Below, in pieces: positions 21,503-57,291 of a DNA stretch of 64,000 bases. A program made the position numbers and the translations under genes. The stretch lies in assembly GCA_030062745.1 (NCBI GenBank), contig CP099839.1:37776816-37840815 (forward strand), in the 5' to 3' direction. Origin of the DNA: Capitulum mitella. Its lineage: Eukaryota; Arthropoda; Thecostraca; Pollicipedomorpha; Pollicipedidae. Under the pieces are notes generated by a model. It saw only the letters and a program-made list of their open reading frames with translations, searched no databases and was not told the DNA's origin. How positions within the stretch are numbered: position 1 is the first letter of the stretch; the number at the start of each line of letters is the position of its first letter.

Positions 21503-22105
21503 GATGAAAGGATCGTGGTGCCAGAGGGTCTCCGGTCGAGGTTAGTGGTACTGGCTCACGAGAGCCACCAGGGGGTCATTCGTACCATAAAGCGCCTGCG
21601 TGCCGTTCGCTGGTGGCCAGGTCTTGGTGCAGCTGTGGAGGCTTTTGCAACGTACAGTAACTTATACGCTGTGTCTAAAAAGATGACCAAGCCCCGCAGA
21701 GCACCGTTGACTTAAGTACCGTTGCCTGACACCGCATGGGACAAGCTGGGCATTGACTTCATTGGATCTATGGAGGGACCTGCGCGTCAAAGGTATGCGG
21801 TCGTTATGGTGGATTATTATTCGGAATGGGTGGAAATGGCCTTTGTCCGTGAGCCGCCCACGGATGCCGTCATCGATTTCATGACAGTGATACCTTCGAG
21901 ACAGGGTTATCCAAAGCAAGTCCTCACTGATAACGGCACACTCTTCACTTTGGACAGGTCTGCAGCGTACCTGAAGAGCCTGGGTGTTGATCACATTCGT
22001 GTGTCTCCTGATCATCCCGCTGGATGGGGCACAGCCGAACAGATGAATCGAGGCGTAATCTGTGTCCGCCGCCGACGTTGCGGATGCCGGACACAGATGG
22101 AATCG

Positions 22106-22255
22106 CAGGCGCAGCCAAGGGGGACGAGGGGGGCCCGGCCCCCTCTTAGGCCCGCATTTTTGTGAAAACCGCTGCACATCGTCTTCCCGGTAGGCGGTTT
22201 TCGTATTTCAGTTCACATTTAGCTCCCCCTTAAGAAAATCCTGGCTACGTCCCTG
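22106..22255. mobile_element. Short family D-like MITE inside the LTR element
   Basis: Starts CAGGCGCAGCCAAGG and ends CCTGGCTACGTCCCTG, imperfect inverted repeats of the family D type, about 150 bp. It was inserted after the LTR element had arrived. Confidence 0.7.
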
Positions 22256-23303: not shown

Positions 23304-24115
23304 ATGTAATCTGGCTGTCGGTCGGTGAGCACCGTAGCCTGGCGGAGACTCGCAACATGACCATTCCATTAGAGTCGGCGAAATGGCTCTTAAGAGTACG
23401 TATTTTGGCGTTTTTCGAGATCTGGAGTAATCACAGGCTTTTTTTACGACTGGAATTTAAGTTAGTGCTAACGCGGAACGCAGTTTGTGCGGAATCCTGA
23501 ATTTCTATTACCAAATGCCTGTTGTGCGTTAGGACACATGGGCTCTTGGGCTCTAACCTGAGGCGTCCGTGTCTTGAGTCAAGTCTTCTGATTCATCGGG
23601 CGCCAGTCGGTCGTCTTAAAATATGAAATAACTACGTTTTGTAATGGGATGCAGTTTCGCTGCGCTAGATTCCTGAGTGGGGTTGCCTTCAGTGGCGCAC
23701 CTGACGCTATCAGTGCGCAAATGGCACTAAATGAGCTTGATATTTCCCCCTCACCAATGCTGCACGCGATGAGTCTGGCTAATATCCCAGGACAGCTAAA
23801 TACCTGAAAACCTTCAATATCGACGTTTGAGTCCACGTGGCTGTGTGCCCAGCCATCCAAGAACGAGAGCACGCAATTGCGCCATTGGTTTCTATGGAAA
23901 TGGGGTTGCGTCAGGCGTAGATCTACGTAAGACTGCGGGACTTCCCCGGAATGATTCATAAGCGTAGAACATCTCTCCGTCGCCTACCTCAAAAGCACTC
24001 AGTTGATCGCGGCGTCAACAGGAAACTTGACGTGTGGTAAAGGGGTTTCATCTTAGCTCATAGGCAGTTGCACAAGGTGAGGCAATAGCGCAGTCGAAAG
24101 GTCAGCGTTTTGTGT
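23304..24115 (+). promoter_or_regulatory. CpG-normal stretch, possible copine promoter and 5' exon
   Basis: Inferred only. CpG is ordinary up to about 24,113 and then nearly vanishes. Possible first-exon donors are GCACAAG|GTGAGG (GT at 24077) and GTGTG|GTAAAG (about 24037). No TATA box or initiator could be fixed with confidence. Confidence 0.3.
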
Positions 24116-27100
24116 TGTGCAAAGTGAGCCAGTTGAAGTGAAGTTATTCAGTCAGCATTTTATACAGCTTTTATAATTTGTTTCACGTAAGAGATGTGCT
24201 TATCTAAATAGTAAAGAATATTGCCCCTGGTTTCCAGGTAGTCAGAGATGCTTAACAAGCTAAGATACATCCAAGGGGTTTACTGGCACAGCTTCCTTGG
24301 ATAGTAAGAAATTAGACTGTGAGAAAAAGATGTTACAGAATGAGGAGTCCATCTGCACTACCTTCTGTGTATCTTTTCCCACATTGCGTCCTTTACAAAA
24401 ATCCTGAGTTCACCCATGTTACCAAATGACCATCCAAATTGCAGCTTACAGCTAGATGGCATTAATATTTGCATTAACCACAGAAGCAATGCATTGCAGG
24501 CTTGCCAAGTAATGAAAAAAAGATCTGGAAACTAAGTTATGGTTTTAAATAGAATGTATTATGTAGTTTGACAGAATATAGATGTGCCAAGTTTTTGAAG
24601 CATTGATTGCTGTTTTATGAAAGAAATATAGATTTGAGGTATTCATCATGAGTGACATTTTCTGTAGTTTGTATTGTATAATATGTTCACAAACATTGAA
24701 TGTGGAAAGCAGCACCAGTTAGTGCCAGTCATTTTTACCAAGGGCCTTCAGTAGATGCATAACTGATAAGTTACATGACATTGCACAACCCTATTAACAC
24801 TAATTTTGGTAGCATTTTTGCAGATATTGTGTCTGTGAATGGTACAAACATAACCAGTTTGAAACTAGTAGCATTAACAGTTGTGCTGTAACAGTTGAAC
24901 ATAGTTGTCATATAAAGAGCTCCTGTTATCACCAATTAATCCTCAACTAGTGTGAATGATTCTGCTTTGTGTGCTGTTTTCCTAGATATGCTTATGCTGC
25001 AAAAACACCAGCATACCTGCACATTGTGTTTTTAGACTTGTGGTGAATGCTCAGCTAATTATGAATTTTTCAATTTCTGATTTTTTGTGATGTTTAACCC
25101 GAAGCATTTGCAAATGGAAAACAAAATGGGGCATTTCTTGTACCTTTAAGAAGCGAGTGTAATTGAATTCATTGTGCCGTACATTTCAGTAACTGTAAAT
25201 GTTTGTAAGGATTATGTAATCTTTTTGTGGTGTTACTTTTTGGGGTTCTGAGCCCTTTTATGAGTTGGAAATAGTTTGGCATGTGTCATGAGATTGTTTG
25301 ACTCCTTGTGTTGTATTCTGATATATTTTTGGGGTTCTTCACTGTGGTTGTGGGTAGTAATCTTGCCACATGATTTAAAGGGAATAAGAAAAACATGGTC
25401 ACAAAGGGAAACAATACATGAAGATTCATGATTTACAGATTGTAAGACATAACATCTGGCATACATCACTACAAGTTACAAAGTTTTTGACAGCAATGCA
25501 GAAATGTTCTTAAATGAGATATGGATAGTTTTAAGGAGAAGCATGTTAAAACTCATGAGTGGGCATTGACCTCTTTGATGCATCAACAGCTGAGCCTGAA
25601 GTGATGCCCATTGTGCCACATAGACTATGTTTGGATAACTTTTTTATGAGGCACATCAATATTCTGCTTATGTCCTTAAGAACTTTGCCTTCAGGCAGAA
25701 CATGCTGTGAGTAGCCAGCAGCCCTCTGAACATCCATCCAGTCTTCTCCAAAGGCCATACATGTTGTCATATTCTGCATTAAGAGCAACTCTGACAGCAA
25801 ACTTCATTATTTTGGGGATTTTGTGATAATTAATTTTTAACCATTCCCATAAACAAACAGAGGGCAGAGGTCCTGTGAGACCTCTGCCAGCATGGCTAAG
25901 ATGACAAGGCAGTAGGCTGGCTGGCTTGCACTCCTATGTACCATTGTTGATCAGGGTGATATGGTTGCTGTGGGGCAACATTTTATCAAAACCTGTTCCA
26001 AGATTTTTCAGTTCATCATAGAGTGCATGTAGCATTTTGGAAGTCTGCTGAACTTAGGCAAAGAACTGTTAGCTTCCTAGAACAATGGGTTGGGTCCTAC
26101 TGACATTGCCTAAACATTGACTCAAAACCAGTTTCCACCAGTCTATGGCGCTAAAGAAGGATGCACCAGGTATCTGTTCTGAATGGATATTCTGTTGAAT
26201 ATTAGAGATTATCTGGTATCCAGATCTGGCTGGATATTTCTGTGAACCAGCCAGATATTTAGCCTTCCAGTATATGGTCAAGGCATTGTTGTCTCTATGT
26301 GCAAAACCATTTCAGGAGAAACACACCTTGTTATGTTAGGTTGTCAGTGCAACTGGCAGTTCCAAGGTCTGTCTGGAGCACCACTTTTCCATCCTAGCTG
26401 AATATGGTTTAGACACATTTTGAAAGAGTGAGACTTAAGGTCAAAGCAGTGAAACAATAGCCAGTATGTGCTCATCAGCCCATTATGCAATGTGTTATCT
26501 TTGTTTTTCCCAAAAATTTTGTCTTTGAAATTCTCTGATACAGATGCATAAAGTAACAGTATCCTTTAAGAGATATACCTTAGTAACCATGAATAATGCT
26601 CATCAAACCAGGTATTCTAGTTCTACAAAGGTGCTATGATCACATTCGGCATATTCTGAAGCCTTTGCCATGGGTTTAATCTCTGCTTGGGCTGCCCGCA
26701 GTTTTCCAGAAATGGTGACTTGTCCCCATAATTTTTGTGGTATTGTGGTATTATAAAGGTATTTCCCATGGGCAAAACGATTTCTTGAACTTTGAAATCC
26801 AATAAAAGGTGTGTGAACCACATGTTGTCATTTGAAATGCAACAAAAGCTCAAAAAGTGGGTTTTACCTCTTGCCATACCTGTTTTTGGTGGATTGCAGC
26901 CAGCTTGTCCCCTCCTTCCCAATTTCTGAATGGTGACTTTGCCCATGCCTTTGCCTGCAATGAGAGTTGGTGAGCTCCACTGTGACTGTTGTGTTCTTTA
27001 TTTATTTACTCATTTTTGCAAGTAAACATATTGAAACCTCACAGTTAGTTTGGACACTAGGGGTGATTCACAAACTATTAACATTTATTGTTTAATGTTT

Positions 27101-27189
27101 TCAGTTTTTCATATGTTCCTTGTTCCATTCAGTCTTTTTCCTTCCATTTTACCAGTAAAAATTGTAAATAAGAATAGGAAAGCATAATT

Positions 27190-27292
27190 CTGGTATCCAA
27201 CCGGACATCCAGCCAAATATCCGGCACCCTGATCTGGCATATCCGGTATCCGGCCGGATCGCTGAAACCCCGATCCGGTGCATCCCTAGCAC
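27190..27292. mobile_element. Terminal fragment of a hAT-like transposon
   Basis: A run of TATCCGG/CCGGAT words ends in GATCCGGTGCATCCCTA, the reverse complement of the TAGGGATGCACCGGATC end typical of many animal hAT elements. Its six or so CpGs stand out in a CpG-poor domain. The other end was not found. Confidence 0.6.
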
Positions 27293-28583
27293 TAGGCAAG
27301 TATTTCAGTCATAAATAAGAAGGGAGAGCCATATGTCATCAGTATACTGTTTGACTTTGGCAGCCATGGAGTACGAATCTCAATTGTGCCCAGAAACTGT
27401 GGATGTCAGAGGACCCAAAATTGAGCTGTGCCCCTTATAGGCTTCCTTGGTGGCTGGCTGAAGTTGTAAAACCAAGCTTTGCTCTAGGTTATCTATAGTT
27501 GCATGCTCTATAGTTGGTGCCATGCTTTGAGTGTGGTTGGTCATGCAAGTGAAATGAAAACCAGTTGTAATCATTACCAAGAAAGAAATCAAAGTGTGTG
27601 CTGAGGCCAGGCATAAAAGAGGAACATTTCCGTCATGTATGGAAGAAATGATGTCGGTTATTATCGTCAGGGAAGTTTTGATATAATGTCGAAACTGTGC
27701 TGCACAGAGGACAACAGATGATTTCATGGCAAGCAGATATGAAGCTGTCCTTGCATGATGCACTGAACTATTTTCCAAATCACAAGTATGGTAGAAATAG
27801 GGTCAGTGCTTGAAGCAGTAGAGGGGCTTCCAAATTTAAAGATAGGGTGAATTAGTGTGTGCTTCCAAGAGCATGGGAAGTCATAACGAACAAGACAGTG
27901 ATATAGGATATGAAGGAGAATGTGGATTGCTGATCAAAGAGATGATTCTCATAATCTGTACATGGAGCCCATCTGAGTCACACATGGGAGAGAGAACCAG
28001 ACATGGTGCAGTGAAGAGTGAAGATGTTGACTGATAACACGGTAAAAGTGCAGGCACCGACATGGAGCAGGCGACATCCCACAGAAGTCCTGGCACATCC
28101 ACTTCTTGCTAATCCGAAGCCTTATGGAAACAAAGGAATAATCGAGATTGTCTACAGACATCTGTGGCTGAGCTTTCATTCCTGCCTTCTTCTATCCTGT
28201 GATACATCCTTTTGAGTTTGGAGGATTTTGCCTCATTTTCTGATTTGATTTTTTTACTGGTCTTAGTGCAAACAATCCAGTGTGTGTCCATATATCTTGA
28301 TTAGCCCTCTTTCTGTTATTCTGTTAATGTGAGCAGTATTTTCTGTATTACTTGAAATGATTTTTGATGCACAGGAGATAACAATGGTGTTCTCAGTTCT
28401 TGCCTAACCAAGTTTATCATCACCAAACTTTGGTGACCAAAATGGTAAACTCATTCAGATGAGTAAGATATATAACAAATTGGTCAGACACCAGTTTTTT
28501 CTGTCAACAGGCTTAGCTACCCACACAAACTACATTCACTCTTGTGCTTGCTGGATATCACAAGACTCAGTTTGGGACTCGCC

Positions 28584-41855
<13,272 letters not shown>

Positions 41856-45489: not shown

Positions 45490-46045
45490 CAGCCGGGACC
45501 CGCACGGCCTCTCCTGCACCCCGGGAACCTGCACGGGAGCCTCTCCTGCAACCCGGGGACCTGCATGGGGCCTCTCCTCCGTGGTGAGGGCCTGCACAGG
45601 GGCCTCTCCTGCATCCCGGGGAATTGCACGGGGGCCTCTCCTGCACCCCGGGAACCTGCACGGTTGCTCTCCTGCAACCCGGGGACCTGCATGGGGCCTC
45701 TCCTCCGCGGTGAGGGCCTGCACAGGGGCCTCTCCTGCACCCCGGGAGCTTGCACGGGGGCCTCTCCTGCACCCCGGGAACCTGCACGGGGGCCTCTCCT
45801 GCACCCCGGGAGCCTGCACGGGGGCCTCTCCTGCACCCCGGGAACCTGCACGGGGGCCTCTCCTGCACCCCGGGAACCTGCATGGGGGCCTCTCCTCCGC
45901 CCCAGGGACCTGTATGGGGCTTCCCCTACACCCCGGCGGCCAGCACGGGGACCTCTCCTGCGCCCCGGGCTCTGCACGGGGCCTCTTGCACCCCGGGGAC
46001 CTCTCCAGCCCGAAGACCTGCACGAGTGCCTCTCCACCCCGGGGG
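45490..46045. repeat. Minisatellite, about 32-bp unit, about 18 units, just past the DCAF10 stop
   Basis: GGGGCCTCTCCTGCACCCCG plus GGAACCTGCACG-type units. A larger block (CCTGCATGGGGCCTCTCCTC and neighbours) occurs twice, near 45560 and 45685. On the - strand it begins about 100 bp past the DCAF10 stop, so it may be in the 3' UTR. Long open frames in it are repeat translation. Confidence 0.95.
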
Positions 46046-50200: not shown

Positions 50201-52652
50201 AGCGTGTCGAACAGCAGCACGCAGCGCCGCTCGCAGGCGGCCACCAGCACCTTGCTGCGGCGGGCGGCGTGTGAGACGCGACGGACAGGCGGACGGCGGA
50301 CAGGTGGCCGGCCGAACCGGCACCGCAAACGCCACGCCACATTCAGCTCCCAGCACGATGGTAATCTGACGCACTTGCCGGCCACATTGATGTAAACAAA
50401 ATGGCTATCGCGCAACGTGCGCAACGTTGTCAAAAAAACAATGTCTATTTGAAAATGTTTCGGGAGTATTCAAGAATTTAACCCGCATCCGACTGGCAGT
50501 CGGCACCGAACACGCTCAACTGGGGGGGGGGGGGCGAGTGGTTTACCGCCTCCCCCTCTAGCTCACGAATGACTGAGTTAGAGGGGCTGACAAAACGAAC
50601 GATAAAACTCAGCGCACACCGTTGGGAAGCTCGTGATAAATACAACTCGAAACTGGTCTCATTTTCAGTTTTGGATAATATGTAAGCCATTCACTTTTAG
50701 ATAATATGTAGGCCATAGATGTTTTCCCACAACCGACTTAATGAAACTGAGAAGCGGCCTGGATCTCAAGGGCTGTGATTAACAACGTCTAGGTAAAGGC
50801 ATTAACGAGTAGGTAAAAGTCCGCAGACAACGATACACGTCTAATTCCTCTGATTTGTTTAACATTTGCGCCAAAACCTTGAGTTAAATACACGGTGATT
50901 TTCGCGTCGAGTGCCGGCGGGCGCCGTAGCCGAACGCGGTACAAAACTGATGAGCACTTATTTTAGCGTTTCTTTATTTTCGCGACATGGACCTTACCAT
51001 ATGCTATTTTTTAATGCTTATGGTCCTGGTGATGATTTTTCATGCTTAGATTTTGGAAAAATTCAGGTGTAATCAATCTACACAGTTGGGGGACCCTTAT
51101 TTGCGAGTCTGTTTATTTCCAAAATATGCACTTTTGAAATTTTTGGAACTTCTTGGCATTACTCGCAATTGTGCGAACCAGTTTTGCCATTTTCAACCCG
51201 TTCTGAGTAACTCATCGCCGATTTGGGCAGCGGTGCATTTTGGTTCATAACAGTTGATCGTGACCTAGCTTCAGGTCAATCGCTGGAAGTCACTGATGCT
51301 TTGTCCATTGAAGGTAAATGGATGTCTGCATCATCCCACACTAAAAATGTTGCGAAAATTTCCGTCAAATTCCAAAAAAACGGTACGTCTTGAAATGGGG
51401 TTGACCTTAGGTCAATGACAAGGAAAATTCCGAAAACTATGAGATAGCAGACGTGTTGCATCCACCTGATCTCTAACCCATGAAAGCTGTATTGTTCATG
51501 TTTTCCAGAGAAGTTACAGGGCGTTAAAATCTTTTGGACATAGGTCCACTTGACCTGGCCTTCATCAGACACCTGACTAGACCTGAGGTCAAATCTTTGA
51601 CAAGGTGTAAAAATGATGAAGCAAGAGGTACATTAAGATTTGTGGCGCTGCGTTCATTCGTTCTCTCGCAATCTTTGAAAAACCCCACGAAGGCCGTCAA
51701 CCGTCCCTCCTCCCCCAAGCGGGGGCGAGTTACGGTAGTATGTATCAGCATGCATATGGCCCGAGCAGGTTAACTACCACTGTTGCAGTGGCACCGACTG
51801 TTGATCGAAATACTGCCACTACATATCAAATACCTTGAAGTGCTAACCAAAGACTATTAATCCAAGTATCTCCATTATATATAAAATGCCCTGAAGTGCT
51901 AACTAACGACCTACAAACCAGAAATCTTCCATTCTTAGGCACTTAGACGCATGCAAAAGAAAATGACAAAAACATGCGAACAAGAAAAATGTCTTACCCA
52001 TCTTTTGAAAATTCGAGATTAAACACAGCACCTCCAGATCCCTGAGAGTCCTCATATGTAGCTACAGGTGACACTCTGAAAGAAATATGATCTGATTAAG
52101 GTGCTGATTACTCCAGTGACAAACAAATATTTGCTAATGCCCCTCAATGTTTGGACTGAAACTGCTTCATCCGCCACCCAATCATTGAATTCTGGCATTG
52201 CCTTCTTGCTTATTGTTCCTCAGTGACTTCATGGCAGGTGCAACTATTACAGCAATGTTAAGACCCCAGTTCCCTAAGCTAAGTCAATGTTGTAAAACGT
52301 GTATTGGAATGTCAAGCTCTGCACTCTATCAGTCTCATATACTGCACTTATATATCTATGCGGTAAGAATCACGCTTTCACATGACACGACAAAACCAGT
52401 GGGGTGGAGACAACAAAGAAAAGCTCCCATAGTACTACATCTGAACAAAGCGCCGACCTGCTGTGCGGTCTACACAATCCTCGCGACACAGCACACGACA
52501 TCACGACAGCAGCAGCCCTGCGGAGGGCGTCGTTACCCGGAGTACAGCCGGGACGAGATGGCGTCCTGGTCCCCGATGGACGGTCTCCAGCCGTACTGGC
52601 GGTCGTACGGGTACAGCGTCACCCGGCCGCTCCTACGCCGGCTCTTTGACAT
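46151..52652 (-). CDS. DCAF10: DCAF10, WD-repeat CUL4-DDB1 substrate receptor, seven coding exons
   Basis: Coding join on the - strand: 52652-52537, 52075-51998, 50254-50141, 49434-49231, 48934-48763, 48346-48223, 47226-46151. Total 1884 nt, 627 residues plus TGA. DCAF proteins carry substrates to the CUL4-DDB1 E3 ubiquitin ligase. The WD blocks match DCAF10/WDR32 in order: GGAVFNLEFSKDGKVLVAAC, then DAHQGYVNCVRF, then FASCSDDKTVAIWDVRNL, then HSNWVKNIEYL, then SLLVTSGFDGSVYTWNLNN, then the C-terminal GFIKELCFSADGRLLCSPFG and VVTAKFSPVECLLVTGCLGG. WDVR (122-125) is a WDxR motif of the kind that contacts DDB1. All splice phases agree (2, 2, 2, 2, 0, 1). The last exon holds a long acidic Pro/Glu linker. 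Confidence 0.95.
47227..48222. other. DCAF10 intron 6
   Basis: AT-rich, CpG-normal intron; nothing recognised. Confidence 0.7.
48223..48346 (-). CDS. DCAF10: DCAF10 exon 6
   Basis: Acceptor GCCACAG, donor G|GTGAGT. It encodes residues 229-269: PSLYKLMQISKTPFPAAARY, THLFDPARRRNRIEFITDFP and E. I recall this segment as conserved in arthropod DCAF10-type proteins, which is one hint that the genome is an arthropod's. Confidence 0.93.
48763..48934 (-). CDS. DCAF10: DCAF10 exon 5
   Basis: Acceptor GGCCGCAG, donor AAG|GTGGGC, phase 0 at its end. It encodes residues 171-228, including RVLHTSGLMRTSLTPDFSKL, VICTNNGYLMVVHDVNF and LRGFK. The HTSGLMR and GYLMV-HD blocks are characteristic of DCAF10. 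Confidence 0.95.
49231..49434 (-). CDS. DCAF10: DCAF10 exon 4 (WDxR motif)
   Basis: The acceptor CCCGCAG abuts a 56-bp tandem repeat whose units contain the same CCCGCAG string. The exon encodes residues 103-170: FLDCRMFASCSDDKTVAIWD, VRNLRHKVHCLEAHSNWVKN, IEYLPHKSLLVTSGFDGSVY and TWNLNNI. WDVR at 122-125 is the candidate DDB1 contact. Donor GG|GTCAGT, phase 2. Confidence 0.96.
49434..49675. repeat. Minisatellite, 56-57-bp unit, four units, abutting the DCAF10 exon 4 acceptor
   Basis: GGTTCAGTCGTCCCGCCAG recurs at about 49453, 49510, 49566 and 49623, each followed by a C-run and CTGCGGCCTCTGCGGGCC. The acceptor of exon 4 is itself the edge of a unit. Confidence 0.96.
50141..50254 (-). CDS. 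DCAF10: DCAF10 exon 3
   Basis: Acceptor CGCCGCAG, donor CAG|GTGAGT. It encodes residues 65-102: KVLVAACERRCVLLFDTLTR, then RNVHTVEDAHQGYVNCVR, the strand-turn-strand of a WD repeat with its conserved His (DAH). Phase 2 on both sides. Confidence 0.95.
50482..51728. mobile_element. Family C element, copy 2, in DCAF10 intron 2
   Basis: Left junction TTAA|CCCGCATCCGAC; the right end AAGCGGGGGCGAG is decayed. It aligns with 16010-17518 except for the MITE that copy 1 carries. It holds at least six TGACCT/AGGTCA hexamers. Confidence 0.8.
51998..52075 (-). CDS. DCAF10: DCAF10 exon 2 (first WD strand)
   Basis: A 78-nt exon, phase 2 in and 2 out, with acceptor TTTCAG and donor GG|GTAAG. It encodes residues 39-64: VSPVATYEDSQGS followed by GGAVFNLEFSKDG. 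This lines up with the HPADS...THGAVFNLEYSPDG stretch of vertebrate DCAF10 and closes the gap between the first exon and VLVAACE. Its codons end mostly in A or T, unlike the GC-rich exons downstream. Confidence 0.9.
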
Positions 52653-52744
52653 GCTCGGCTGGCAGGCAATCAGGTGGTGCAGCAGCAGCCTTGACAGCAC
52701 AAGCAGGCTGCCAGCTGGCTCAGCCAAATGATGTTACAGCAAAA
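52537..52744 (-). CDS. DCAF10: DCAF10 exon with start codon (CDS 52652-52537)
   Basis: The ATG at 52652-52650 (AGCATGT, A at -3) starts MSKSRRRSGRVTLYPYDRQY and the exon ends with ISSRLYSG, equivalent to the LYGS segment of vertebrate DCAF10. An in-frame stop lies upstream, and this is the first in-frame ATG after it. The donor GG|GTAACG at 52536 is phase 2. A very good acceptor (CTTTCTTTCAG on the - strand) ends at 52745, so 52744-52653 is probably 5' UTR and a non-coding exon lies upstream. Confidence 0.82.
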
Positions 52745-55700
52745 CTGAAAGAAAGATGGAAGGGGGGAGGGATACCATGTCAAATGCAATGCAAATTGTG
52801 ATTGTGATTGTCCATATGCTATACATAAAAAAAAACATATTACAAACTGACAAAGCAAACACACTGACTTTTGGCTTCCTTGCATGCTACAGCAACTAAC
52901 CAGCTGACCAACTGTAACAATCTTTCAGACAAAATGAATGCACTCAACTTCGTCCAGCAGCCAGAGGCAAAATTGAGAATTTTGCAACAAAGTGGGGATG
53001 TTTCCAATGCCCTCCTATAACAGTGGTCATCCTCTCTGAGCTCAGTGACAGGTGGCATGCATTACAATGAGCCTAGATCAATGACAAGTTTACACACACA
53101 AAAAAAACATTTAACATGGCAAACTTAGCTATAATACTGTCCCCACATTGTCACATAAATTCTATGGCTGATGGTGGTGTATTTGTTACTCACACAAATC
53201 ATCATTTGCTGGCAAGTAATACCACGTAAGTGCCCAGTTCCCACCAATGGCTTTTGGCAATTACATAATATGGAGATGCATGGTAGGACTGTTTACAAAA
53301 GAAAATTGAAGAAGGAAAGTAGCATTATTTACAAAAGACAGTCCAAAATGTATGATTTTATGTCTCCCAAGAACCAGTCAATACATTTCAGTGATTCTGA
53401 CTGCAATTGATAGTGTTCATCAAGCAGCTCTATTTGTTGGCTATGATGATGTCAGGTCAGAACAAATTCTTGAAGTGTATGGCTCCATATCCACCAATTT
53501 ACCTAATCCACCAACCAACACATTTCAGTGTCACAAACAGATGTCAATGCCCCATCCCCCAGCAGCTCCATTTCTTAAAACTCATAAAAACTTAAACTCA
53601 TTAAAACTTAAAACTCATGATGCCACAGCTAATGGCAAATCTTTGGAATGTACATTTCATGCCTAACTGGAGAGTCAATCAACAGATTTGACACCAATGA
53701 CGTCACAGGCGAGTTCACACCCTGAGAATGTATGACTTCATGTACAACTTGACAAGCAATCAGCCAGGGGAGAGACTATATGTGAATGATTGGGGGGACA
53801 GGCCCAATACCCCACATCTGAAACTTGCCCCAAACGCAAGTTTCTCAATTTATATCCAGATTATTTTGGCTGCCAGTAGTTCTTTTTTGTCATCATTTAT
53901 CAAATACCAAACTTTACTTTGTTTGACAAAGCTGCCAGGAAATATTGGGGGGGGGGGCAAAATCACATGGGGGACTGGGATCTACAATGGGGGGGGGGGG
54001 CCAAGGCCCCTGCAAGAGCGCAAATTGAAACCCCCACAATCAATGGATTTTGGCGATTTAACCATCCTGCAATAGCTTTTCATCCAGCAACTCCATTTGC
54101 TGGCATCAATGATGTCAAAGATCAGATGAAATGACAAAAACATATGGCTCCATCTCTAACTCACATCAGTTGATGAAATTTGGTGATTCACACAACAATC
54201 TCTGACACATGGGGGGGGGGGTGAAAGCAGTGACACCCCTGAAATTCTGGAGCGGCCTGCAGGACATTGGGTTCCATACATCACAAAAACAAAAACAAGA
54301 GACCTATAAGCCAGGAGCCAACAGGCAAAGGCACATAGGCCAGTGGCCTGCATTGGTGAGAGGCCCACAAGCCAGTGACCTTTAGTGGCCCAAAGCCCTG
54401 TGCCCACAAGCCAGAAGGGCCTATGGGCAAGGGGCACACAAGCCAGGGGCCCATTGATCAAGTCCTCACCTATAAACCTATAACGAGTCTGTGGGTCACT
54501 CGCTACAAAGCTCACACACCCCTAGCCGTTCGCAGGCTAGGGGTGTGTGAGCCTGCTGCTGCTTGGAGCCAGTGGTTAGACCTGTAGGCCCATGGCCTGC
54601 ATGTATTAGGGGCCTGAAAGCCCCTAAGCACCTCTGCAAGCCAGAAGTCTGCAAGTGAGTGGCCCATAGCCCAGGAGCCCACTTGCCAGAGGGGCCCTTT
54701 CCAGGGGGCCATTGGCTATGATCTCATAATCCAGGGCCAGGACATTGGTCATGTACCCAGCTAGGGCCCAGTTAACCCGGGCACCAGTGTTGGAAACCTG
54801 GTTTTTCTTCCTGGTGTGTGAGTACAAATTCTCTTTTGAAGTATAAAATGTCATGTGCTCATATGAGAAACACAGACAAACCTGGTGCTTTGGAAGCATA
54901 TGTGGCCAGCAGGGGTGGATCCAGTGGCTCTGTTTGGGGGGAGACCAATCCAGTTCCCTGGGTCTATGTGGTACATCAGCAGAGTTGTTGACCAGGGGGG
55001 TGGAAGGCAACTGGTCATGGCTTCAGCAACCAAGTATGAATGGTAAACCATCAACATGGGGGAGGGGACTAGGCAACTTCAAACTCTGGTTGAGTAGGAA
55101 TATCCATGTCTTTTGGGGGAGGGGGCAAAGGACCATTTTGGAGTACAAAATTTTCCTTGGAGTATACGTTTTTTGGCACCCCTTGACACCAGAAAATGAC
55201 AGTTTTCCAACACTGCCAGGGACTGCATATTTTGAATTTATGATAAGCTAAGACTTTACCAAGAGGTCCAGTATGGAATAAACTGGGATTGTGTTGAATG
55301 ATCAATGTAAACAAATGGTAAAACAAATGGTCTCATGTTTTAGCCACAGAGCAACATCTTTCAGAATTTATGATGGTGTCATCAACACATCATCAAGAGG
55401 CCCAATCCCCATAAAACTGGGATTTGGCCAACTCTGCCACAACACGACAATAGCCTTTACGGAAGAAAACTGTGTTCTTGTGCACACATCTTTTGTTTAC
55501 TCAAGCCAGATGTCTGCACTTTCATATTTTGTAAATGGTGCTACTGTGAAGTATCTAAATACATGACTGACCAACTTTTCCCACAACACTTGCAAAGGAA
55601 TGCATTTTGGCACAAATAACTGATTATACTGTGAGTCATACTGAACTTCATATCACACAAAAACATACTACAGTTGCATGCAAAAATACTTGGCTTTTAC

Positions 55701-56817
55701 ATGTTTTGCACTAATGAATAGCATGGTAAGGATTATTATGTTACTCTGTGGCATTCACAGTTACAAAACAACAGATGCCACTAGGTTGCTTCTCAATATT
55801 CAGGACTAAATCCAATAATTTCTGGGTGCAATTATGCCAACATATGACACAACAAAAATCTGACAACATTTTTGTCTAAAACATTTTCATTTGCTCTTAC
55901 ATTTGACAAATAATGCCCATTTGACAATAATGCCTTTCACACCAAGGACTTACAAATCAAGCCATCATTTTATTTTGTGCATCTGTATCTTTAACAGTCA
56001 TAACAAAAATGTGTTCAGCTACAGCATGAAGCAGAAAACAGGAGTTAATTACAGAACTTGATGGAATTAAAATGAGTGCATGTACTTCCCACCATAAGCA
56101 ATGATAAATATGGCAAGCACTGATTTACTCAAGATGGACTTATGTTTTTGGGCCCATGGCTCACTTCATGGTGATTTTTGTACAAATGATTTGGTATGTA
56201 ATAAAATATGGCAGAAAGAGAAATGGCACACACAATCTGAAACACTGCAATAACCAGGATGTCTCCTGAGCACAAGGATGTAACATGATAAATGTCTGCT
56301 TTTTGCAGCCTCAGTCAATAACACATCACTTCATTATACAAGGTTCAACATCATGTTGAAAATTATTCCACAGTGGTCATAATAATGTGCAGATCTAAAT
56401 ACAAAAACTGACAATGAAGTGAACTGGACAGAATGAAATGATGAAACATGATCTAGGCAAGATGATCACTGAGAAATGACAATATAGAAAAGAGAAACTT
56501 CACAGCCAGGCATTGTGCAAGGATTTGTAGCTTGTCAAGGTTTATGGTTTTAATTTCCTGGTTACAAATAGCCAAGCCCATAACATTCACCTTTTCACTT
56601 TAAAACATAACTTAAGTCAACATGTTTCCTGACAGCTACATCTAGACCAAGTTAGGGAAATAGACCATTTCCTCCAATAAATCAACTCCTGAATGTAGGC
56701 AGTCCAATAAGAACATTATCATATTGCAAATTCATCACCTGCATCAAACAAATTGTGCAAGTGACCTCTACATGGGAGATATTTCATCTGTCCACAAAGA
56801 AACTATCAGTGTATCCA
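52745..56817. other. CpG-depleted domain upstream of DCAF10
   Basis: CpG is scarce throughout, and there is none at all from 55,462 to 56,817. None of the TTAA or hAT-like families was recognised inside it. Around 54290-54740 there are imperfect repeats of GGCCCACAAGCCAGTGG-like words. It probably is the first intron of DCAF10. Confidence 0.85.
54510..54552. other. Perfect 18-bp hairpin with a 7-base loop
   Basis: Arms GCTCACACACCCCTAGCC (54510-54527) and its exact reverse complement (54535-54552), loop GTTCGCA. One of the few CpGs of this domain is in the loop. Confidence 0.95.
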
Positions 56818-57132
56818 CGGGTTTAATCGGTTTACCAAAGTTCGATATAATACTCGTCGAGACGAGCCGTGACTTTGCCCACCATGGACAACCACAAAAA
56901 TGTCATGAAGCCAGACTTACAATCATCTACGCTTCATCTGCGCAGATCGCCAACAATCGTGTATGGGAACACAGTGCAACGTTTAGCATCAAACACAATC
57001 GCTCCTATTCCATCCAAGGCTTACGTTCATGAACGCTAATAGCAGTAAACACGGTGCGCACGTTCACTCCGAGTTTGTCTACAACGTATCGCTGAGTTAA
57101 GCTGTCCCGTCAGCTGATTGGATTTTGCTTTG
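56818..57132. promoter_or_regulatory. CpG-rich stretch, possible DCAF10 promoter or bidirectional promoter
   Basis: Inferred. CpG returns abruptly at 56,818, with for example CTCGTCGAGACGAGCCG near 56865. On the - strand TTTG|GTAAAC (GT at 56835-56834) is a candidate donor for a non-coding first exon of DCAF10. The + strand candidate exon at 57133 would share this promoter. Confidence 0.35.
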
Positions 57133-57291
57133 ATGCAGATGGAGATGTCGCCAGGGAATGTTTTCCGTTTCAAGGAGAGTTTTTCGAATGCAAGTGCTTC
57201 TGCAGAATTGCTGCTTGAAAGTGAATTAGTGCAACGAAAGCTATATAACATCGCAATCACAATCGCACAAATGGAACCAATTTCCAACAGG
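57133..57291 (+). CDS. Possible first coding exon of a divergent gene, unidentified
   Basis: From the ATG at 57133 the frame reads MQMEMSPGNVFRFKESFSNA, then SASAELLLESELVQRKLYNI, then AITIAQMEPISN, with ordinary balanced amino-acid use. It lies about 300 bp into CpG-rich DNA that begins abruptly at 56,818, as a first exon beside a promoter would. A weak donor is AGG|GTGGAC at 57292. No family is recognised and no second exon was found, so this may be chance. Confidence 0.3.

Follow-up and report, generated by a model that had tools for sequence, protein, structure and literature searches.

A 64,000-nucleotide stretch of the genome of the barnacle Capitulum mitella (contig CP099839.1 of assembly GCA_030062745.1, positions 37,776,816 to 37,840,815; hereinafter the window) carries two genes with a long, CpG-depleted tract on the 5′ side of each. 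The minus-strand gene codes for a WD40 protein, which we take to be DCAF10 (Pfam shows WD40 only, and the PDB matches are generic WD40 chains); the plus-strand gene codes for a copine, recognized by its C2 exons. We call the tract beside the DCAF10-like gene desert B and that upstream of the copine C2 exons desert A (Table 1). Within desert B the consecutive CpGs at 55,460 and 56,818 enclose the widest CpG gap in the window (the runner-up spans 25,178 to 26,149), after which CpG recurs in quick succession at 56,818, 56,828, 56,843, 56,855, 56,858, 56,863, and 56,868. The longest CpG gap in 300 simulated sequences of 64 kb (first-order Markov model) was at most 236 bp, which excludes chance as the origin of the 1,356-bp gap. 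An earlier note on this DNA had described a single CpG desert over 52,745-56,817 with a CpG-free core. We confirmed that 55,462-56,817 contains no CpG and that CpG resumes at 56,818; the full span is CpG-poor and not CpG-free, with 16 CpGs in 52,659-56,817, and the second desert of the window, at 24,120-28,847, had been overlooked.

The dinucleotide spectrum of desert B points to the process that emptied it. CpG alone among the dinucleotides is nearly lost, and TG and CA, already called abundant in the earlier note, indeed reach observed/expected (O/E) ratios of 1.54 and 1.58, compared with 1.19 and 1.11 elsewhere in the window. The gains in TpG and CpA are approximately equal, implying that both strands decayed alike, and the spectrum as a whole, being the signature expected of deaminated 5-methyl-CpG, supports decay of methylated CpG well. 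Tandem repeats or satellites were rejected as a cause of this composition, with only short, weak repeats being found in desert B. Scans recovered no structured RNA genes and, with the tRNA scan run under a bacterial setting, no tRNA genes.

Desert B is probably intron 1 of the DCAF10-like gene. A strong acceptor (score 7.8; first exon base 52,744) is present at the start of the ATG exon as previously claimed; the desert edge, however, lies 86 bp past it. Our change-point fit places the inner step at 52,658 (95% interval 52,641-52,688), coinciding with a weaker candidate CAG acceptor, and the 86 bp between the two acceptors are still CpG-depleted and belong to the desert. CpG is dense from 52,656 downward, throughout the ATG-exon region (52,361-52,656), and the remainder of the gene is CpG-normal (O/E 1.11 over 46.1-51.8 kb). 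At the outer edge, the donor at 56,835 proposed as the end of a non-coding first exon proved weak, ranking fifth among the donor-like sites listed in 56,600-57,150, and our search among these sites settled on none; the edge, placed within about 20 bp of this donor by the earlier note, has a fitted interval of 17-77 bp inside it. At the copine gene, the outer step of desert A falls about 50 bp inside the donor-like site at 24,077 (95%: 182 bp inside to 43 bp outside), and the remainder of the gene is CpG-normal (O/E 1.04 over 30.05-42.2 kb). Desert A does not reach the copine C2 exon but ends at a CpG-rich minisatellite (28,984-29,811) lying between the two; further CpG-rich minisatellites with 32-35 bp units near the copine and DCAF10 exons occupy 33,053-33,299 and 45,506-46,002.

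The host genome (477 Mb in 16 contigs) provided the background against which we judged these deserts. In twenty 10-kb stretches taken at round-number positions (200 kb in total), CpG O/E per stretch ranged from 0.79 to 1.16. Deserts of at least 500 bp made up 4.3% of the sampled sequence and occurred in three of the 20 stretches, one of them (L012, contig C6) being a weaker desert with O/E 0.18-0.39. Among 398 windows of 500 bp, eight lay below 0.25 and none between 0.2 and 0.3, the median being 0.97; this gap between the low and the main windows indicates that deserts form a separate low class. Likewise, the longest CpG gaps (1,001 bp in L014 and 731 bp in L012) both fell within deserts, and those of the other 18 stretches did not exceed 333 bp. 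CpG depletion with TpG/CpA gain thus marks a discrete sequence class, as in mosaic gene-body methylation.

We followed 11 deserts: the two of the window, three from the sampled stretches (contigs C4, C6, and C8), four (L032-L035) reached through an interspersed repeat in desert B (repeat R, see below), and two beside proteasome genes. The C8 desert, L014, is interrupted by a CpG-normal stretch (C8:5,007,627-5,008,974) and was counted once; desert A has similar interruptions at 27,209-27,285 and 27,630-27,695, and in both cases these are perhaps younger insertions, still undecayed. A gene could be recognized at seven of the 11 deserts, and one more lies beside an exon of an unnamed gene. The seven are DCAF10, copine, AK3-like adenylate kinase, PSMA3, and PSMA7, together with two that we take to be PAK1IP1 (WD40 only in Pfam, generic WD40 chains in PDB) and RBM17 (presumed from its N-terminus, for which PDB gave no match, with a G-patch further on in the gene); AK3, PSMA3, and PSMA7, as well as PSMA5, were identified by their best PDB match. 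All seven, presumably constitutive genes, have the desert on their 5′ side, where it precedes or surrounds an early coding exon. Of the three proteasome genes read, PSMA3 and PSMA7 each have a desert immediately upstream of the exon, and the exons in question start at about residue 8 and residue 31 of their proteins, respectively, so that both deserts must be introns.

To position the edges relative to splice sites, we fitted change-points to the six deserts that have an exon next to their downstream end (Table 1). The interval includes the acceptor at four of the six edges (RBM17, PSMA7, L035, and PSMA3), with the step no more than 14 bp from the acceptor in the first three. Since the RBM17 start codon lies 24 bp past the acceptor, the vicinity of the start codon would be an equally good landmark at RBM17 and DCAF10, though not one that fits PSMA3 and PSMA7. 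Composition changes abruptly across these edges: at DCAF10, RBM17, and PSMA3 the last 500 bp before the exon have an O/E of 0.04-0.13, as against 0.65-1.13 in the exon (RBM17 1.04, its exon end being approximate; PSMA3 0.65; DCAF10 1.13, or 0.78 with the strong acceptor), and the 300 bp following the exon are at 1.22, 1.02, and 0.83 in RBM17, PSMA3, and DCAF10, respectively. The PAK1IP1 desert stops short of its exon, at a sequence resembling an interspersed repeat. The sharpness of the boundary, singled out earlier as unusual, recurs in comparable steps at other genes of the same genome. The CpG-poor domain occupies a 5′, mostly intronic position and ends often, though not always, at the first CpG-normal exon.

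Table 1. Coordinates of the features discussed. Positions are those of the window unless a contig is named; inner edges are fitted offsets from the first exon base, negative values lying upstream; a slash marks the splice junction.
Feature	Position or offset	Strand	Details
CpG desert B	52659..56817		4,159 bp, 16 CpG, O/E 0.09, TG+CA O/E 1.56; two-state segmentation, dinucleotide spectrum
CpG-free core in desert B	55462..56817		1,356 bp
Repeat R copy inside desert B	54781..55216	+	
ATG exon of DCAF10-like gene, if strong acceptor used (TTTCTTTCAG/TTTTGC)	52537..52744	-	start codon 52,652-52,650
Weaker candidate acceptor GCCAG/CC	52653..52661	-	first exon base 52,658; coincides with desert B inner edge
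Candidate donor TTG/GTAAAC, named in the earlier note	56832..56840	-	
Weaker CpG-poor stretch, DCAF10 intron 2	51813..52357		545 bp, O/E 0.30; segmentation
CpG desert A	24120..28847		4,728 bp, 32 CpG, O/E 0.17; upstream of copine C2 exon (+ strand); segmentation
Best donor-like site at desert A outer edge, AAG/GTGAGG	24074..24082	+	candidate end of copine exon 1
Open frame with first recognized copine C2 exon	29744..30025	+	Pfam C2, E 2.7e-6; downstream of desert A
Open frame with second copine C2 exon	32454..33350	+	Pfam C2; PDB BONZAI 1 (a copine), E 5.9e-22
RBM17 inner edge	+14 bp (-3 to 20)		
L035 (unnamed gene) inner edge	-13 bp (-42 to 16)		
PSMA7 inner edge	-11 bp (-111 to 60)		
PSMA3 inner edge	-126 bp (-198 to 25)		
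DCAF10 inner edge	+86 bp (95% 65 to 104)		strong acceptor
DCAF10 inner edge	0 (95% -30 to 17)		weak acceptor
AK3-like inner edge	-749 to 159		uninformative
DNMT1 RFD domain PF12047	C2:33,077,018-33,080,561		
DNMT1 methylase domain PF00145	C2:33,056,228-33,059,052		same strand as RFD, further 3′

The genome encodes the machinery for maintaining such a pattern in the form of DNMT1, recognized by RFD and methylase domains that occur in DNMT1 order on one strand (Table 1). A second PF00145 methylase locus on contig C4 may be DNMT2 or DNMT3. The DNMT3-specific profile PF21255 had no match in the genome, a search rendered uninformative by the control genomes likewise giving none.

Taking these observations together, we consider it probable, with good confidence, that desert B is the footprint of germline CpG methylation over a 5′ intron (likely intron 1) of a broadly expressed gene, and that the same holds at other genes of this genome. 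Over a very long period, methylated cytosines would have deaminated to thymine, converting CpG to TpG or CpA until nearly none was left. CpG would have survived in the flanking sequences that stayed unmethylated: the promoter and first exon at the outer end of the domain, and exon 2 with the beginning of intron 2 at the inner end. The sharpness of the edges would then follow from stable ends of the methylated domain, usually close to the junction of intron 1 and exon 2. The edge might be guided by a change of chromatin state at the first internal exon, for instance from dimethylation to trimethylation of histone H3 lysine 36 (H3K36me2 to H3K36me3), with methylation following the zone before that switch. 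The decay of methylated CpG over a 5′ intron that the earlier note proposed is upheld by the spectrum, by DNMT1, and by the other 5′ deserts, the 5′ untranslated exon of DCAF10 being a candidate only.

Several observations weigh against this reading. The DCAF10 edge lies 86 bp (95% 65-104) past the strong acceptor, and intron 2 of the same gene holds the second, weaker CpG-poor stretch. The best edge estimate at PSMA3 is 126 bp upstream of the acceptor, though the interval includes it, and the AK3-like desert continues through the first coding exon, leaving its edge uninformative (-749 to 159). Among the matches listed, no gene was recognized by eye at three of the 11 deserts (L012, L032, and L033), and the L035 desert, which has SGF29 (identified by its Pfam Tudor domain) as a neighbor, precedes the apparent last exon of an unnamed gene. 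PSMA5 has no desert in the 2.8 kb before its exon. Finally, four of the 11 deserts were selected because a repeat copy lay in the desert.

Among the alternatives, we regard as rather unlikely an ordinary 5′-biased gene-body methylation, extending a few kb from the transcription start site over exons and introns alike, in which coding selection and high GC content preserved the CpG of exon 2 and chance accounts for part of the agreement between edges and acceptors. It would draw on the 5′ bias known in arthropods, on the second CpG-poor stretch in DCAF10 intron 2, and on the AK3-like gene, whose desert crosses a 154-bp first coding exon that keeps CpG mainly in Arg codons (five in Arg codons, three at codon junctions, and none in NCG codons), with the next 300 bp at O/E 0.12. 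Such a domain is hard to reconcile with the CpG-normal start of the next intron at RBM17, PSMA3, and DCAF10, and coding selection with the CpGs that could be lost, judged by codon position, without changing the protein: 10 of 15 in DCAF10 exon 2 and 22 of 29 in RBM17 exon 2. It is likewise improbable that the DCAF10 desert is sequence upstream of a promoter located in the ATG exon and not an intron at all. The density of CpG in the ATG-exon region and the candidate status of the 5′ exon would allow it; against it stand the strong acceptor and the PSMA3 and PSMA7 deserts, which are introns, the exons after them starting inside the protein. CpG loss without methylation, whether CpG was selected against in introns that are transcribed or was removed by some other mutational bias, has hardly any probability in our estimate. 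What room it has comes from our deducing the methylation from sequence; a transcription-coupled bias should be strand-lopsided, whereas TpG and CpA match the CpG loss about equally, and the genome encodes DNMT1.

A further explanation, which we judge very unlikely, is that the transposon family of repeat R draws methylation that spreads across the host intron. Repeat R is about 440 bp long, with other copies at L009:450-919, L014:6072-6332, and L024-L031. Genome-wide, a first look gave 1,086 candidates, and 39 of the 40 that we scored are 79-83% identical to the window copy, in which six of eight CpG sites of other copies read TG or CA, a further point in favor of decayed methylated CpG. The first sample has copies in three independent deserts, and five of the seven non-self best matches lie in or beside CpG deserts (L032-L035 being four of these five). 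The other two, however, lie in CpG-normal flanks, and on this ground we set aside methylation nucleated by transposable elements as the main cause. Furthermore, the query copy is itself CpG-decayed, so that the ranking of matches favors decayed copies; desert A has no reported repeat R match; and the repeat leaves the edges near exons unexplained. Repeat R could have an insertion or retention preference for 5′ introns. Elsewhere in desert B, a hairpin at 54,509-54,553 (near-perfect 19-bp stem, 7-nt loop; minimum free energy -47.1 kcal/mol over 76 nt, z -7.0) adjoins a four-CpG cluster at 54,484-54,531; its 17-bp-arm pattern was absent from the fetched loci except L024, where it occupies the identical place to that in the window. 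A second repeat is common to L014 and L012; among 32 CpGs in the L014 copy, 15 read TG or CA at L012. It contains CCTAA pentamer arrays, which resemble the arthropod telomere repeat. At 21,716-22,162 on the plus strand of the window lies a fragment of an integrase-like retroelement, identified by inspecting its translation; the 1-kb windows around it have CpG O/E 0.75-1.10, with no CpG decay seen.

If germline methylation over the first intron is indeed what the deserts record, it might obey a lineage-specific rule, whereby only the first intron is methylated and the mark ceases once the first internal exon is reached, so that splice junctions bound the domain, with methylation tracking the 5′ H3K36me2 zone, or a similar first-intron mark, instead of H3K36me3. 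We put this forward tentatively, as a possibility about which we have some doubt; the rule rests on few genes, partly selected. How invertebrates select transcribed genes for methylation, and why the mark occupies its particular place within a gene, is an open question; a readable test would be offered by a genome in which mutation has recorded a methylated domain at base resolution and the edges fall close to splice junctions. Were the domain to end at exon 2 however long intron 1 is, the boundary would be set by chromatin linked to splicing rather than by distance from the promoter. Moreover, methylation of this sort could escape surveys that rely on CpG O/E in coding sequence, since the coding exons beyond the desert look normal.

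Our limited search of the open literature found no report of DNA methylation in barnacles, and the accessible portion of one paper (PMC8821070) has zero occurrences of barnacle, Cirripedia, Amphibalanus, or Thecostraca; within the same limits, and in the partial texts at hand, we came across no arthropod for which a methylated domain limited to intron 1 has been described. The deserts resemble mosaic 5′-biased arthropod methylation in affecting a subset of genes, in their 5′ bias, in CpG erosion, and in the presence of DNMT1. That bias, which the earlier note had invoked as known, is exon-peaked in two species: Daphnia has almost no methylation in its introns and a maximum at exons 2 and 3 (PMC6097596), and in Nasonia exon methylation peaks at exon 2, with intron signal near junctions and at intron 2 (PMC3794928). 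On that pattern one would not expect a desert limited to an intron and followed by a CpG-rich exon 2. Judged as erosion and not as 5-methylcytosine, the deserts at DCAF10, RBM17, and PSMA3 do not show the exon-centered type, in which signal is highest in 5′ exons and low in introns. A survey of arthropods found exons to exceed introns in most species, with little exon/intron difference in Parhyale and Armadillidium and Parhyale exons below unannotated sequence (PMC7343188), and in the marbled crayfish introns are methylated as well as exons (PMC6172769), so intron methylation in a crustacean is not in itself new. These crustacean methylomes share an intron signal with the deserts described here; unlike the latter, they are not described, in the portions available, as restricted to the first intron or as stepping at exon 2. 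In vertebrates, methylation of the first intron is inversely related to expression (PMC6025724); the first intron as a methylation unit is common to both, the barnacle desert standing out from a CpG-rich genome. The mammalian switch from H3K36me2 to H3K36me3 at the first internal exon (PMC6134763) concerns a histone mark and not DNA methylation, and its link to the desert edges is one that we propose. The unusual part is the shape of the predicted domain, gene-body methylation covering the first intron and ceasing from exon 2 onward. Unlike the exon peaks of Daphnia and Nasonia, it is here the first intron that is eroded, with exon 2 and the start of intron 2 usually spared; if true, this first-intron pattern would be the mirror image of their exon-centered methylomes.

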